Below are positions 56,893 through 62,902 of a DNA stretch of 64,000 bases, piece after piece. Source of the DNA: Runella sp. SP2 (lineage in GTDB: Bacteria; Bacteroidota; Bacteroidia; Cytophagales; Spirosomataceae). The notes below the pieces were generated by a model, which saw only the letters and a program-made list of their open reading frames with translations, did not search any database and had not been told where the DNA came from. Every line of letters starts with the position of its first letter. Within the stretch, counting starts at the first letter, position 1. The stretch is taken from NCBI RefSeq assembly GCF_003711225.1, contig NZ_CP031030.1:2728001-2792000 (forward strand), given 5' to 3'. The position numbers were made by a program, and so were the translations under genes.

Positions 56893-57007
56893 GATACAGT
56901 GTAAAGTTTAGGGTAACGAAAAAATCAGGTTTTTAACTTGTTTATCTGGAATTTGTGAGTTAGAATTGCTTACTATTCCAAGTAAATCTACTGAAAATAT
57001 CCTTGCC

Positions 57008-60000
57008 ATGAAACCTATTTTACTTTCATTAACTGTATCAAACATTTGCAAATGGCTTTTTTTAGTTTTGACGGGCATTGTGGGAACGTTTCCTACGCAG
57101 GCCCAGACCATTACCGACAATGCCTTTGCAGGAGCCATTCGAGAGGTGTGTCCAACTTGTATTGACGACGCCAACAAGCTGCTTTTCCCCGCAACGAGCC
57201 TTACGTCTTTGGACATTTCTAACAAAGGAATCAGTGACTTAACTGGGATTGGTGGGTTTACGTCGTTAAAATCACTGAATTGCCACAGTAACAAACTTAC
57301 CCAATTACCCACCCTCCCGTCCACCCTGACGACCCTCCAGTGCGATGTCAACCAAATCACGAGTTTACCAACTTTACCTGCTGGTTTGACTACGCTGTCT
57401 TGCAGCTACAATCAGCTACCATTTTTGCCCAATCTTCCCACTACCCTAACGGCCTTGGCCTGCAACAACAACCAGCTTACCAACTTACCCGACCTCCCAA
57501 ACACGCTGACATCGCTCACCTGTTCCAACAATCAGTTGGCGGCCCTGCCAAATGCCTTGCCTGCGGGTCTTAAAACATTGTTTTGTTTATCCAACAAACT
57601 CACCCAATTACCAACCCTACCAAACAGCCTCACGACTTTGTACTGTCAGGAGAATCAAATCAGCTGTTTGCCAGCCTTACCCAGTTCTCTGTCTGTTTTG
57701 TACTTAGATACCGATAAAATCAGCTGCTTACCCACAGTTGTTTCAGGCTTGAAGGTTTATAATGCGAGGGGAAATCTTGCGGAAGAGATGGGGATTTGTG
57801 TGACGATAAGCAATCCCGTTTTACTCACCGCAATTAAGAGTAGGTGTTCAGCTTGTTTTGACAATTGTAATAATTTAACCCCCTATGCTTTCACTTTAAC
57901 TTATCTTGAACTTGATGGGCTTTCAACCAACTCACTTAGCGGGATTGAACATTTCAAGTCCCTACAGAACCTCTCATGTCGCTATGCTCAACTAGAAAGT
58001 TTACCTGATAATCTGCCAAATTCACTATTACGTCTCGATGTTCAGAACAATAAAATCACATCACTGCCTAATCTTCCTCCAAACATTCAACATCTGCAAT
58101 TGGCACAAAACAAGCTTACTAAAATTGACAGTTTACCCGCTGCTCTTAGGCAGTTATATTGTAACAATAATTTAATTGCCTTTTTACCAAAACTCCCCTC
58201 AACACTTACACTCCTAGATTGTAGTAATAACCTCCTTCGTACATTACCTGCGTCATTATCCAATCTGAACTCACTTATAGCCTACAATAATCAATTAATT
58301 GAACTCCCTCCTATTCCTTCTCAATTAAGCACGCTGGATGTCAAATCTAACTCACTTACCAAGTTACCTTCTTTACCATCTCAACTTTCATCACTTTATT
58401 GCGATAATAATTCAATTACGTGTTTACCACTGCTTCCTAACTCAATTTATAGCATTTCTATTAATAATAATCCCATAAGTTGTATCCCAAATAAAATTAT
58501 CGATCGTATTGTATATCTTAATGGAAAAGAACTACCGCTTTGTGGTATAGCTAACATCAATCTTATTGCTGCTGTCCAAAAAGTATGCCCTTCTTGTTTT
58601 GATGAATGTCTAAAAATAAAAACGGAAGAAATTGAGAAAATTACAAATCTCGATTTATCTGGACAGAATATTTCGTCACTTGAAGGCATTGATTTGTTTA
58701 CATCGCTTGAGTCTTTAAACATCAGTAATAACCCAATCACTTGCCTCTATAATCTTCCTAAAAATCTGTTGAGCCTAACCATTGATACTGACAAAATTAC
58801 TTGTATCCCCGATTCACTGCCAGCGCTAAAAGTGTATAATTCACTAGGTCAACTTATACCTACTCCTGAAAAATGTGTCAAAATTTTAGACAATGTATTA
58901 GCAAATAGAATCCGTAGTTCTTGTTATAGTTGTATAAATGAATGTAATATCCTTTTACCACGTTCTCAATCTTTAACTCAACTAACAATATATCAAACGA
59001 ATGGTATTGAAGAGTTAGTAAAACTAAAGGCCCTAACTCATTTATCATGTTACAACTGTGAAGGTGAAAAACTACCAAATTTACCTAAAAATTTACGTTT
59101 ACTAAATTGGTCAATCGGAAAATTAACTCGTGTTGAAAATTTACCTGATAGTTTAATAGAAGCTCATCTTTCGTCAAATCAGATTACTGAAATAATAAAT
59201 TTACCTACCAAATTAAAAATATTATCTATACCAAACAACAAATTAAAAACTCTCCAAAATTTATCGATTTTTTTAGAAAAGATTGATGCTTCTAGCAATC
59301 AAATCTCGTCTATCGATAACCTCCCAAATACACTTATTGAACTTAATGTCCGATATAATCAATTAAGTTCGCTTCCAGACCTGCCTTCAACTTTACAAGT
59401 TATAAACTGCAGTCAAAACCCCCTAATTACTTGTTTACCCTTTTTGCCACGAGGATTAAAATCATTGGAAATATACGGAAATTCTGAAATCAAATGTCTT
59501 CCCAATAAAGTTGATAATCTTACATTAGGCACTAATTATACGAATCCACTACCTATTTGCGGTTTAGGTGATCCAAATTTAATCTTGGCGATTCGTGAAG
59601 TTTGTAATAATTGCTTCAACTCATGCTTCGAAATTAACTATGAAGAAGCTCTAAAGATAACAAATCTTGAGATTTCAGGCAAAGCTATAAACAATTTAGT
59701 CGGACTTGAAAACTTTCCCAACATTCAGACATTAAATATAAGCAATAATAATATCGTTTGTATTCCATTTTTACCCGAAAACCTTATTTCATTGACCATT
59801 GATGCTGAAAAAATAACCTGCTTACCCACACACAACCCCAATCTCAGAGTGTATGATAAAAGTGGGCAATTAATAAATACGCCTGCATTATGTCCAGAAC
59901 GCATTTTTGATAGCAACTTTGCCCAAGCAATTAAACGGCAGTGCCCTACTTGCTTGGATGATTGCAACAACCTTTTACCGCCTGCCAAAACACTTGAGCA

Positions 60001-62830
60001 ATTAAATATCAACTACAGTAACATAAAAGATTTGACAGGAATCATTGGTTTTCAGTCACTTAAAACTCTGTCTTGCAATAACAACAAATTAACGTTTCTT
60101 CCAGAACTTCCAAGCAATTTAACCTACTTAAATATATCTTATAATTCAATAAAAAAGCTTAATAATTTACCTGAAAGCTTGAATCAACTAGATTGCAATT
60201 CAAACAATATGTTAGAAATAGAGGAATTACCCTCTTCGGTTTCCAACCTTAACTGTAATTACAACTCACTCACGACTTTACCAAAACTCCCTCAGAGTCT
60301 TACTTATTTGTATTGTAGCAATAATAATTTAATAAAACTCCCAGAGTTCCCTTCCGAGGTAAACATTGTTGCTCTCAATCAAAATCCTCAGCTAGAGTGT
60401 TTACCATTCCTCCCCCAAAAACTAAGAAATCTCAGCATTTATAATACAAAAATAAACTGCTTACCAAATTCAGTAAGCGGGGTCTCCATTAATGCTAACC
60501 CTTCACTTCTCCCATTTTGTGGAATTTCGGACACAAATCTACAAAAAGCCATTGCAGAGAGCTGTCCGAGTTGTTTTGATGATTGTATGAGAATAAATAC
60601 TAATGAAGCTCAAAAAGTAAAATCACTAGCCATTTCAGGAAAAAATATTACCAAAATTGTGGACTTACATTTTTTTCCAAATCTGGAATCGATTGACATT
60701 TCTAACAACCCTATTACCTGCCTTTCTCCCTTGCCAAACTCGGTATCTTCAATTAAAATTGATGAAGAAAAAATCAAATGTGTGTCAAGTGAAAATTTGA
60801 ATTTAAAAGTTTTCAACTCAAAAGGTGAAATAATTCCTAAGCCATCAGCCTGTAGTACTTTTATTCATGACATAAACTTTGCCAATGCTATTCGGCGAAG
60901 CTGTTCAACTTGTATCGACGATTGTAATTATTTATTGCCGCCTGCCGCAACACTCACTTACCTATCAATAACCTACAGCAATATAACCGATTTAACTGGC
61001 ATTGAAGGATTTGCGTCTCTTCAGTCTCTGTATGCTTCTGGAAATTTACTCAAAACATTACCCACATTGCCCTCTACTTTACGCACGCTCGAAGTAAGGG
61101 CTAATGCTCTACAATCCATTCCCTCTCTGCCTGATAATATTACTGAATTATACATCAGTAATAACTCCTTAACACAGTTACCTACGCTTCCAAACAGGTT
61201 ACAAAGGCTAGATTTAATCAACAATAAAATTTCAGCAATTCCGACGCTACCCTCTACTTTAATAGACCTACGTTGCTCTTCTAATCAAATCACCTGCCTT
61301 CCATCCATACCCTTTTCACTTACTTATTTTCAATTCGACAGTCACAAAATTGGATGCTTAAAAAACCTAAAAAGCGGAATTTCATTGATTGGCTATAATA
61401 ATGCTTCGTTTACCACTTACCCCGAATGTAGCAACCCCATTATTCTTTCGGACGTTACTGCCAATACCCCTAATCCTGTGACACCAAGCACAACCGTTTC
61501 ATTGACTGTAAAACGCAACTATACAGGTACTGTAGCCATAAAATGGCAGCGTAAAAAATTAAACGACAGTGATTATTCTGACTTGAAAATTGATACCATC
61601 GCGACCGCTACCAATGCCGACTTTGTCTATACACTCCCCAACGTAACTGTCGCCGACAATGGCAGTGAGTATCGGTTGGTGGTCACTTCTGCTTGTTCTG
61701 GAACATTCACGGCCAAAGCATTTACGTTGGCGGTAAAAGATGAATCGCTGTCGCCACCCACAATCACGGCAAGCCCACGAGATACAGTCTGTTTATCCCA
61801 AACGATTCGGCTCACTTCCAATTGTCCTCCCACCTCCGCTACCCTTTGGAGCACAGGAGAAAACGCACCCTTTATCGACATCCATTCGTCCACGCAAACA
61901 AGTCGAACTTTTACGGCAAAATGCAGCACAGGCGCCATTCAATCGCCCGAAAGCCCCGTTAAAACCGTTGTTTGGAAACCTTTTGAGGTGATTCTCATCA
62001 ACATTGGCCAGTCAAAAAGTGCAACCAAACAGGGGCAAAATGTTTCACTTTCTGCTTGGAACTCCCAATTTGTCACCCCCGACAATGGTCCTTCTTTGGC
62101 CTTTAGCTCACAAACAAACCCTAGCATCTATTATCTCGATAATCCCAACAAAATTCAACCTCGTTTTTGGACAGCTTACGTTGATATTTGTGATGTTTCT
62201 AACGAAGGTTCGGTTTCATTTGACATGCTAGCGACTCCAGAGATTGGTATTCCCGTTTCCTTCAATACGCATGAAAATAATGCACCCTATTTTATGTACG
62301 CCAATAGAGACGGTTTTACTGAGTTATATGCCCAAAACCACCCTAATTTTGGTTTCTACGCAGAAAACGAAAATAAACAAAACCGCTACGATGATGGACT
62401 AGCAGCTGGTTTGTACAAACTCAGTATTCGTTATTGGCCTCAAAAAGGGCTTGGACTCGCTCCTTCTTTAAGATTTCCACAGGGTATTTCCACTTCTTAC
62501 CAAGAACACTGGTTTCGTATTCAATCAAAGATGAGGACTTCCTCGGCTAGGCGCTCCGTTGACTCATCGCCAGACGCCCCTTTATTTAGTATTACACCTA
62601 ACCCAGCCACTACTACCGCCGTTTTAAGCGTGAAACAAGCCAAACACCAAGAAATTCAGTATGAATGGCTGGACCTTACTGGACGGGTTCATCATAAAAG
62701 TCAATTTGTCGCCGAAACAGACAATCACACGGAGCAGCTTAACATTACGCGCTTGCCAACGGGGCTTTATTTTCTACGAATAACCACCCCAACCCAGCAA
62801 GTAAATTTGAAAGTAACCAAACTAGATTAA
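57008..62830 (+). CDS. Giant leucine-rich-repeat surface protein with T9SS sorting domain
   Basis: 1940 residues from ATG 57008, where the signal peptide starts (SNICKWLFLVLTGIVGTFPT then QAQ); a 56966 start adds 14 non-signal residues. Residues 40-1475 contain eight modules, each opening with a Cys-rich cap (for example AIREVCPTCIDD, AIKRQCPTCLDDC, AIRRSCSTCIDDC), then I-x-x-L-x-GI-x-x-F, then 1-9 LRRs of about 20 residues (NLPxxLxxLxCSNNQL type, similar to YopM/IpaH bacterial repeats). Next come two Ig-like domains (about 1480-1660) and a further beta-domain. The last 85 residues are a type-A T9SS sorting domain (FSITPNPATTTAVLSV ... GLYFLRITTPTQQVNLKVTK). It is predicted to be exported across the outer membrane and anchored or released. 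Confidence 0.94.
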   Translation: MKPILLSLTVSNICKWLFLVLTGIVGTFPTQAQTITDNAFAGAIREVCPTCIDDANKLLFPATSLTSLDISNKGISDLTGIGGFTSLKSLNCHSNKLTQLPTLPSTLTTLQCDVNQITSLPTLPAGLTTLSCSYNQLPFLPNLPTTLTALACNNNQLTNLPDLPNTLTSLTCSNNQLAALPNALPAGLKTLFCLSNKLTQLPTLPNSLTTLYCQENQISCLPALPSSLSVLYLDTDKISCLPTVVSGLKVYNARGNLAEEMGICVTISNPVLLTAIKSRCSACFDNCNNLTPYAFTLTYLELDGLSTNSLSGIEHFKSLQNLSCRYAQLESLPDNLPNSLLRLDVQNNKITSLPNLPPNIQHLQLAQNKLTKIDSLPAALRQLYCNNNLIAFLPKLPSTLTLLDCSNNLLRTLPASLSNLNSLIAYNNQLIELPPIPSQLSTLDVKSNSLTKLPSLPSQLSSLYCDNNSITCLPLLPNSIYSISINNNPISCIPNKIIDRIVYLNGKELPLCGIANINLIAAVQKVCPSCFDECLKIKTEEIEKITNLDLSGQNISSLEGIDLFTSLESLNISNNPITCLYNLPKNLLSLTIDTDKITCIPDSLPALKVYNSLGQLIPTPEKCVKILDNVLANRIRSSCYSCINECNILLPRSQSLTQLTIYQTNGIEELVKLKALTHLSCYNCEGEKLPNLPKNLRLLNWSIGKLTRVENLPDSLIEAHLSSNQITEIINLPTKLKILSIPNNKLKTLQNLSIFLEKIDASSNQISSIDNLPNTLIELNVRYNQLSSLPDLPSTLQVINCSQNPLITCLPFLPRGLKSLEIYGNSEIKCLPNKVDNLTLGTNYTNPLPICGLGDPNLILAIREVCNNCFNSCFEINYEEALKITNLEISGKAINNLVGLENFPNIQTLNISNNNIVCIPFLPENLISLTIDAEKITCLPTHNPNLRVYDKSGQLINTPALCPERIFDSNFAQAIKRQCPTCLDDCNNLLPPAKTLEQLNINYSNIKDLTGIIGFQSLKTLSCNNNKLTFLPELPSNLTYLNISYNSIKKLNNLPESLNQLDCNSNNMLEIEELPSSVSNLNCNYNSLTTLPKLPQSLTYLYCSNNNLIKLPEFPSEVNIVALNQNPQLECLPFLPQKLRNLSIYNTKINCLPNSVSGVSINANPSLLPFCGISDTNLQKAIAESCPSCFDDCMRINTNEAQKVKSLAISGKNITKIVDLHFFPNLESIDISNNPITCLSPLPNSVSSIKIDEEKIKCVSSENLNLKVFNSKGEIIPKPSACSTFIHDINFANAIRRSCSTCIDDCNYLLPPAATLTYLSITYSNITDLTGIEGFASLQSLYASGNLLKTLPTLPSTLRTLEVRANALQSIPSLPDNITELYISNNSLTQLPTLPNRLQRLDLINNKISAIPTLPSTLIDLRCSSNQITCLPSIPFSLTYFQFDSHKIGCLKNLKSGISLIGYNNASFTTYPECSNPIILSDVTANTPNPVTPSTTVSLTVKRNYTGTVAIKWQRKKLNDSDYSDLKIDTIATATNADFVYTLPNVTVADNGSEYRLVVTSACSGTFTAKAFTLAVKDESLSPPTITASPRDTVCLSQTIRLTSNCPPTSATLWSTGENAPFIDIHSSTQTSRTFTAKCSTGAIQSPESPVKTVVWKPFEVILINIGQSKSATKQGQNVSLSAWNSQFVTPDNGPSLAFSSQTNPSIYYLDNPNKIQPRFWTAYVDICDVSNEGSVSFDMLATPEIGIPVSFNTHENNAPYFMYANRDGFTELYAQNHPNFGFYAENENKQNRYDDGLAAGLYKLSIRYWPQKGLGLAPSLRFPQGISTSYQEHWFRIQSKMRTSSARRSVDSSPDAPLFSITPNPATTTAVLSVKQAKHQEIQYEWLDLTGRVHHKSQFVAETDNHTEQLNITRLPTGLYFLRITTPTQQVNLKVTKLD
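57149..61430 (+). repeat. Nested protein repeat: eight capped LRR modules, long/short alternation
   Basis: The first cap cysteines are at residues 48, 280, 527, 639, 866, 979, 1186 and 1299 (codons at 57149, 57845, 58586, 58922, 59603, 59942, 60563, 60902). Modules 2, 4 and 6 are long (247, 227, 207 residues) and end in a LPLCGI-type C-cap; modules 3, 5 and 7 are short (112-113) and end in a KVYN/GQLI-type cap. The long-plus-short unit repeats at 359, 340 and 320 residues, shrinking by about one LRR each time. Confidence 0.85.
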
Positions 62831-62837
62831 CCTCTCC

Positions 62838-62864
62838 AAAGCCGACCAACCGTCGGCTTTTTTT
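62838..62864 (+). terminator. Intrinsic terminator of the LRR gene
   Basis: AAAGCCGAC (62838-62846) pairs with GTCGGCTTT (62852-62860), followed by TTTT. It is 8 bp after the stop. Confidence 0.93.
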
Positions 62865-62902
62865 AGTACTTTCGCCTTCCTAAACTGAACCATTTCAACC
62901 CT

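Follow-up and report, generated by a model that had tools for sequence, protein, structure and literature searches.

We consider it probable that a 1940-residue leucine-rich repeat (LRR) protein of Runella sp. SP2, hereafter the giant, is an exported string of eight capped LRR domains, which arose by duplication of module pairs, became fixed in length, and diversified in two long modules, M4 and M6, partly through exchange of alleles. The gene lies on the forward strand, at positions 57008–62830 of the window (i.e. the whole 64,000-nt stretch of DNA that was analyzed), and full-length orthologues are present in R. defluvii and R. limosa. We place the start at the ATG at 57008; the list of open reading frames began at an upstream TTG (1954 aa). 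Literature searches on Runella with leucine-rich repeat or with type IX secretion, judged by titles only, gave no title on this protein, and the titles found for the first pair of terms concern cell death and gasdermins, and release factors.

Module architecture and probable export

The giant matches PF12799 with 221.5 bits, and a register table of the 20-residue LRRs in the three orthologues contains the repeat LxxLxLxxNxLxxLPxLPxx. A hydrophobic N-terminus, read directly as a probable signal peptide region (residues 1–33; 57008–57106), is followed by eight modules, all on the forward strand. We segmented their LRRs by hand and checked the segments by exact match. Each module consists of an N-cap with C-x2-C-x3-C (the third Cys being absent in M1), a first LRR, 22 residues long except in M4 (20), a number n of plain LRRs of ∼20 residues each, two Cys-marked LRRs, and a C-cap with Cys. 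Five modules are long, namely M1 (57113–57808; n = 6), M2 (57809–58549; n = 7), M4 (58886–59566; n = 6), M6 (59906–60526; n = 5) and M8 (60866–61441; n = 4), and three are short, M3 (58550–58885), M5 (59567–59905) and M7 (60527–60865). From M1 to M8, the LRRs after the first number 8, 9, 2, 8, 2, 7, 2 and 6. Because the last two LRRs and both caps are all present without interior LRRs, a short module is the bare frame, with n = 0. In the scheme we propose, N-cap, first LRR, Cys-marked pair and C-cap would form a fixed frame in every domain, to which 0 to 7 plain LRRs are added.

The Cys-marked pair follows a clear rule. In the 14 modules of the giant and of a paralogue in R. limosa, Cys occupies register position 13 in 28/28 of the last-two LRRs, versus 0/41 other LRRs. 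Both Cys are kept in five of six aligned single-module relatives; a 1916-aa ORF of SP2, itself a single-module relative, has no Cys in the penultimate LRR, and the rule is not strict across the wider family. The cap cysteines may form cap disulfides. A sequence-only reading of this DNA had placed eight cap cysteines at residues 48, 280, 527, 639, 866, 979, 1186 and 1299, and all of these positions are exact, as are the spacings that follow from them (232, 247, 112, 227, 113, 207 and 113, with the 112–113 it gave for the short module); sums of the measured spacings agree with its super-units of 359, 340 and 320 residues. That reading also had two C-cap types alternating in phase with module length. 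An A-type cap (xTPxxC in most) closes M1, M3, M5 and M7, a B-type cap (LPxCG) closes M2, M4 and M6, and M8 ends in a terminal C-cap. Hence the types do alternate, from M1 on, but the phase fails for M1, which is long yet has an A-type cap; length alternates only from M2.

A further claim, that the later modules are AT-richer, is correct as to the low GC3 of M2–M8, although it is M1 that is the odd one. GC3 is 0.54 in M1, 0.19–0.34 in M2–M7 and 0.35 in M8; across 119 windows of the other long ORFs in the 64,000 nt, the mean is 0.48 and the lowest value 0.373, and each of M2–M8 falls below this. The modules of the R. limosa paralogue (0.23–0.35) and five other Runella LRR ORFs (0.30–0.35) are about as AT-rich, which indicates that AT-richness belongs to these LRR genes, with M1 the exception.

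At the C-terminus, residues 1862–1938 (62591–62821) form a type A sorting domain of the type IX secretion system (T9SS), which scores 35.7 bits against TIGR04183 (cut-off 23) and 34.3 bits against PF18962 of Pfam (cut-off 27). SprA_N (PF14349) is found in the SP2 genome at 8.8e-138 and in 0/14 control genomes; it is one type IX component only. Judging from these signals, the giant is most likely a T9SS-exported multi-domain binding protein, and it would act at the cell surface or in secreted form after export via the type IX system. Residues 1490–1855 (61475–62572), between the LRR modules and the sorting domain, have no Pfam match. From residue ∼1535 to 1940 (61610–62827), the C-terminal 300–400 residues match 40 other places in the SP2 genome (E at most 2e-87, 41–52% identity, in open frames of 534–4873 aa). 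Of eight such relatives, the N-terminal part was covered in six, which begin differently from one another; this is a large family with a common end, ahead of whose sorting tail there is no Pfam match.

An AlphaFold2 model of M2–M7, built from four alignment rows, has a mean pLDDT of 86.6 and a pTM of 0.43. Each of the six modelled modules opens with its own helix and has its own strands. The prediction fits modules arranged as beads on a string, with a pTM that leaves the angles between modules undefined. For the C-terminal 451 residues the predicted fold was poor (pLDDT 41.3), and that model was left unused.

Divergence of M4 and M6 between species

The orthologues of R. defluvii (1940 aa; G001, loci L054 and L079) and R. 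limosa (1939 aa; G004, loci L055 and L078) sit in the same gene neighbourhood as the SP2 gene. Their identity to the giant in the first 1500 residues is 89 and 85%, respectively, and the alignments contain a single gap, of one residue. Module order, which the sequence-only reading had named as a ground for refutation if unrelated among orthologues, is the same in both, and their spacings equal those of SP2 except for one residue in M6. A difference in repeat number between relatives, the mark of length-variable repeat surface proteins, was not found across the three species, each represented by one genome. The giant thus looks like an old design that is stable in length, the middle modules of which change in sequence but not in length.

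This change is concentrated in M4 and M6. M4 has the lowest amino-acid identity to R. defluvii of any module (71%), with 40% identity and unchanged length in the 40 residues from 721 to 760, and M6 likewise shows strong divergence between species. For three neighbouring genes, dS from SP2 is 0.24–0.26 to R. defluvii and 0.32–0.36 to R. limosa. The corresponding values are 0.63 and 0.76 for M4, 0.46 and 0.91 for M6, and 0.07 and 0.53 for M7; between R. defluvii and R. limosa, dS is 0.97 for M4 and 0.81 for M6, values given without a neighbour baseline. No sign of positive selection was seen, dN/dS being below 1 in every module from M1 to M8 (the short signal segment gave 0.093/0.08 in one comparison). 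In 12 LRRs of M4 and M6, changes are commonest at register positions 5, 8, 13, 20 and 7 and rarest at 9, 11, 18, 4 and 17; this count took 20-residue LRRs only, with the three 21-residue LRRs of M4/M6 dropped.

The divergence is also mosaic. Three-way site patterns differ among 13 segments of the gene (chi-square 172, 24 df). In M4, sites at which SP2 equals R. limosa outnumber those at which it equals R. defluvii (84 versus 62), whereas the counts are 15 versus 59 in M1, 2 versus 35 in M7 and 12 versus 92 in M8. Within M4, residues ∼640–760 are nearer R. limosa and residues ∼760–860 nearer R. defluvii. We suggest that recombination made this mosaic, in which case M4 and M6 would have diversified at least in part by exchange of diverged alleles.

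A local effect of mutation or relaxed constraint, rather than allele exchange, could also underlie the divergence, and we regard it as a serious though somewhat less than even prospect. As such an effect would have it, both modules have a high AT content, and several non-core positions are where they change most. The signals from M4 disagree: all sites and amino acids put SP2 nearer R. limosa, while dS and fourfold sites put it nearer R. defluvii and so fail to back the switch of nearest species. Yet M2, M3, M5 and M7 are equally AT-rich and have fewer fourfold differences than M4 and M6 in two of the three comparisons. The rise in M4 and M6 is modest, both between SP2 and R. defluvii (26/112 versus 69/632, P = 0.001) and between SP2 and R. 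limosa (45/118 versus 148/582, P = 0.007), and the excess is not significant between R. defluvii and R. limosa (P = 0.20). The shift of site patterns along the gene also speaks against a purely local effect and in favour of allele exchange.

Origin of the modules and constancy of length

Alternation of long and short modules likely arose by duplication of a long-short pair, judging from a phylogeny of the caps and from the R. limosa paralogue. The paralogue (L056:6447-9515, 1023 aa) obeys the same grammar as the giant. Its six modules are arranged as A(3)-B(7)-A(2)-B(5)-A(2)-terminal(6), with two pairs and no countdown. In the cap tree (36 rows, 112 of 119 columns, LG+G4), the giant's short modules group together (98/99), and M5 joins M7 (92/83) as M4 joins M6 (83/77), the latter two joins falling below our support mark of 95/80. 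These sister joins fit a final duplication event, from which M4M5 and M6M7 resulted. Segmental duplication of a pair, as put forward in the sequence-only reading, therefore has the cap tree and the alternating paralogue on its side, with its sister joins short of the mark.

Could long and short modules instead have been added independently and be alike through functional constraint, with no duplication of pairs? We think this unlikely. It would suit a tree in which the caps give only 112 columns, 14/33 inner branches are left open, and the program flags meetings of long branches, including M4 with M6 and M5 with M7; M2, moreover, groups with a module of the paralogue (58/63), not with M4 and M6. 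It sits poorly with the agreement of the two sister pairs, with the single group of short modules, and with the B-type long modules of the giant and paralogue, all of which fall together, albeit weakly (74/88). Under pair duplication, the chain would have grown before the species of SP2, R. defluvii and R. limosa parted, with M4M5 and M6M7 as its youngest copies; LRR number would then have stayed fixed while the long middle modules M4 and M6 diversified in sequence.

The long modules shorten along the chain. A loss of one LRR per cycle had been noticed beforehand and holds for M2, M4 and M6 (9, 8 and 7 LRRs after the first), and it extends one step further, to M8 with 6; M1, with 8, stands outside the series. 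The countdown itself is weak evidence, because four given counts fall in order by chance 1 time in 24. Stepwise loss or gain of single LRRs, the cause proposed for it, finds no support. Each of the 10 pairings of long modules was aligned LRR by LRR with order preserved, and its alignment was compared with 2000 shuffles of the order. With caps included, 10/10 pairs were collinear (P at most 0.008); with interior LRRs alone, none of the 10 was significantly so (smallest P = 0.167). Orthologous interiors, used as a positive control that does not gauge power for old duplicates, were collinear in 10/10 cases (P = 0.001–0.048). A search for single-LRR deletions that would relate long modules to one another traced none.

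We also examined the DNA for repeats that could be a substrate for length change. Within the first 4500 bases, exact direct repeats reach 15 bp at most, compared to 12–14 bp in ten codon shuffles; a tandem-repeat finder returned a single entry (2.4 copies of an 8-bp unit), and direct DNA repeats comprise an 89-nt family, with three copies at 61–72%, and a 40-nt pair at 70%. Programmed length variation, another suggestion of the sequence-only reading, is contradicted at the species level by the lack of longer exact repeats and by the two equally spaced full-length orthologues. A running process, in which slippage or recombination frequently removes or adds single LRRs and the series 9-8-7-6 is its record, is highly improbable: the falling counts speak for it, and against it stand the spacings conserved in two other species, the scarcity of repeats, interiors that are not collinear, and paralogue counts (3, 7, 2, 5, 2, 6) that do not count down. 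The countdown is probably accidental or a fossil.

Distribution, relation to known proteins and significance

To follow the short module beyond SP2, we built a profile from 11 short modules (of SP2, R. defluvii, R. limosa and the R. limosa paralogue) and searched 222 genomes of the family, 390 of the order and 395 of the phylum, draws that overlap and each include the SP2 genome. All 11 matches of at least 157 bits were the rows that built the profile. Below these came, at 78.4 bits, long modules from the same proteins and, at 75.8 bits, an LRR protein of genome G008 with a single module; the best match outside the genus (G339, 64.2 bits) lies in a multi-module protein, the modules of which, by eye, have interior LRRs. 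No further short modules of the giant's kind were seen among the candidates scored in the family, order and phylum draws, these being in many genomes only part of all candidates (at most 21 or 11). A full-length match to the giant was not found in the other 10 Runella genomes examined, of which one is 83% complete and three contain partial LRR matches.

The slot of the gene in G008, a Runella relative, is flanked by the same two neighbours, spans ∼600 bp (L214:2440-3080) and corresponds to positions 56893–62902 of the window. Two fragments lie in it, one of 84 bp resembling the start of the gene and one of 197 bp resembling its C-terminal region, and so the slot once housed a gene containing both. 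By its sequence, the slot is a decayed remnant of a gene that had the giant's start and C-terminal region, LRR modules not being implied. Two loci in the SP2 genome (C1) also carry LRR frames. At L051:3756-6272 (∼867755–870271), one stop codon lies between two single-module frames (465 and 373 aa), both of which have an N-cap; they may be two adjacent genes or one split gene. At L053:5457-6200, a 159-aa LRR frame is followed by several stops and looks decayed.

YopM, SspH2 and IpaH share the giant's 20-residue repeat with LPxLP. These proteins are effectors delivered by injection, and some of them have a ligase domain. They are the best sequence matches in the PDB, and YopM is the first row of a Foldseek search with the M2–M7 model, which returned generic LRR folds with low query TM-scores (0.12–0.21 among the 50 matches listed). 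Unlike these effectors, the giant ends in a T9SS tail, and its eight domains are each capped, with Cys in the caps. Assignment to SspH2/SlrP-type effectors was rejected on scores of 404.6 (NCBIfam cut-off 1243) and 268.4 (cut-off 1113), with the best stretches in the LRRs.

The multi-module LRR proteins L242, L237 and L238 of other Bacteroidota share, by eye, the D-x-N-F N-cap and LTGI-type first LRR, repeated along the chain. Again by eye, they have seven, five and three N-caps, respectively, and none was seen to have an alternating zero-interior module or paired C-cap types, in contrast to the giant. Since they have multiple N-caps, the multi-module kind of LRR protein is already known in the phylum, and what sets the giant apart is the alternation of zero-interior modules together with its paired cap types. 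The frame in L242 (3274 onward, genome G768; 1909 aa) contains two very similar neighbouring modules among its seven by-eye N-caps, and is perhaps likelier than the giant's gene to show variation in module number.

Two published systems offer further comparison. LRR proteins of Flavobacterium psychrophilum carry TIGR04183 tails, as the giant does (PMC5682007), and their number varies among isolates (PMC8400371); the giant, by contrast, comes from a single gene whose length is equal in three species. IRREKO proteins are bacterial nested LRRs, often opened by a different first LRR, with repeats of 21 residues nested as 10+11 and containing LDLxx (PMC2946307). The giant is likewise nested and has a deviant first LRR, with nesting at the level of modules. 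Its repeat is mostly of 20 residues with LPxLP, not 21 with LDLxx in the second half, and it was not classed as IRREKO.

The giant provides a clean grammar for a multi-domain LRR protein, in that a Cys-marked cap pair separates the cap from the interior LRRs in all 14 modules of two proteins. It is also an example from nature of constant LRR number alongside sequence divergence, which lowers identity to 40% in one stretch, and through it module exchange in a bacterial surface protein can be put to the test. We suppose that the long arrays bind ligands and that the short modules act as spacers or joints; the zero-interior module may serve as a minimal LRR domain. A bolder, and doubtful, extension is an anchor-and-cassette arrangement, in which conserved caps and short modules are fixed anchors of homology and structure, and stretches of the long modules M4 and M6 are swapped among Runella species. 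If this is true, binding surfaces would change while length and geometry stay constant.
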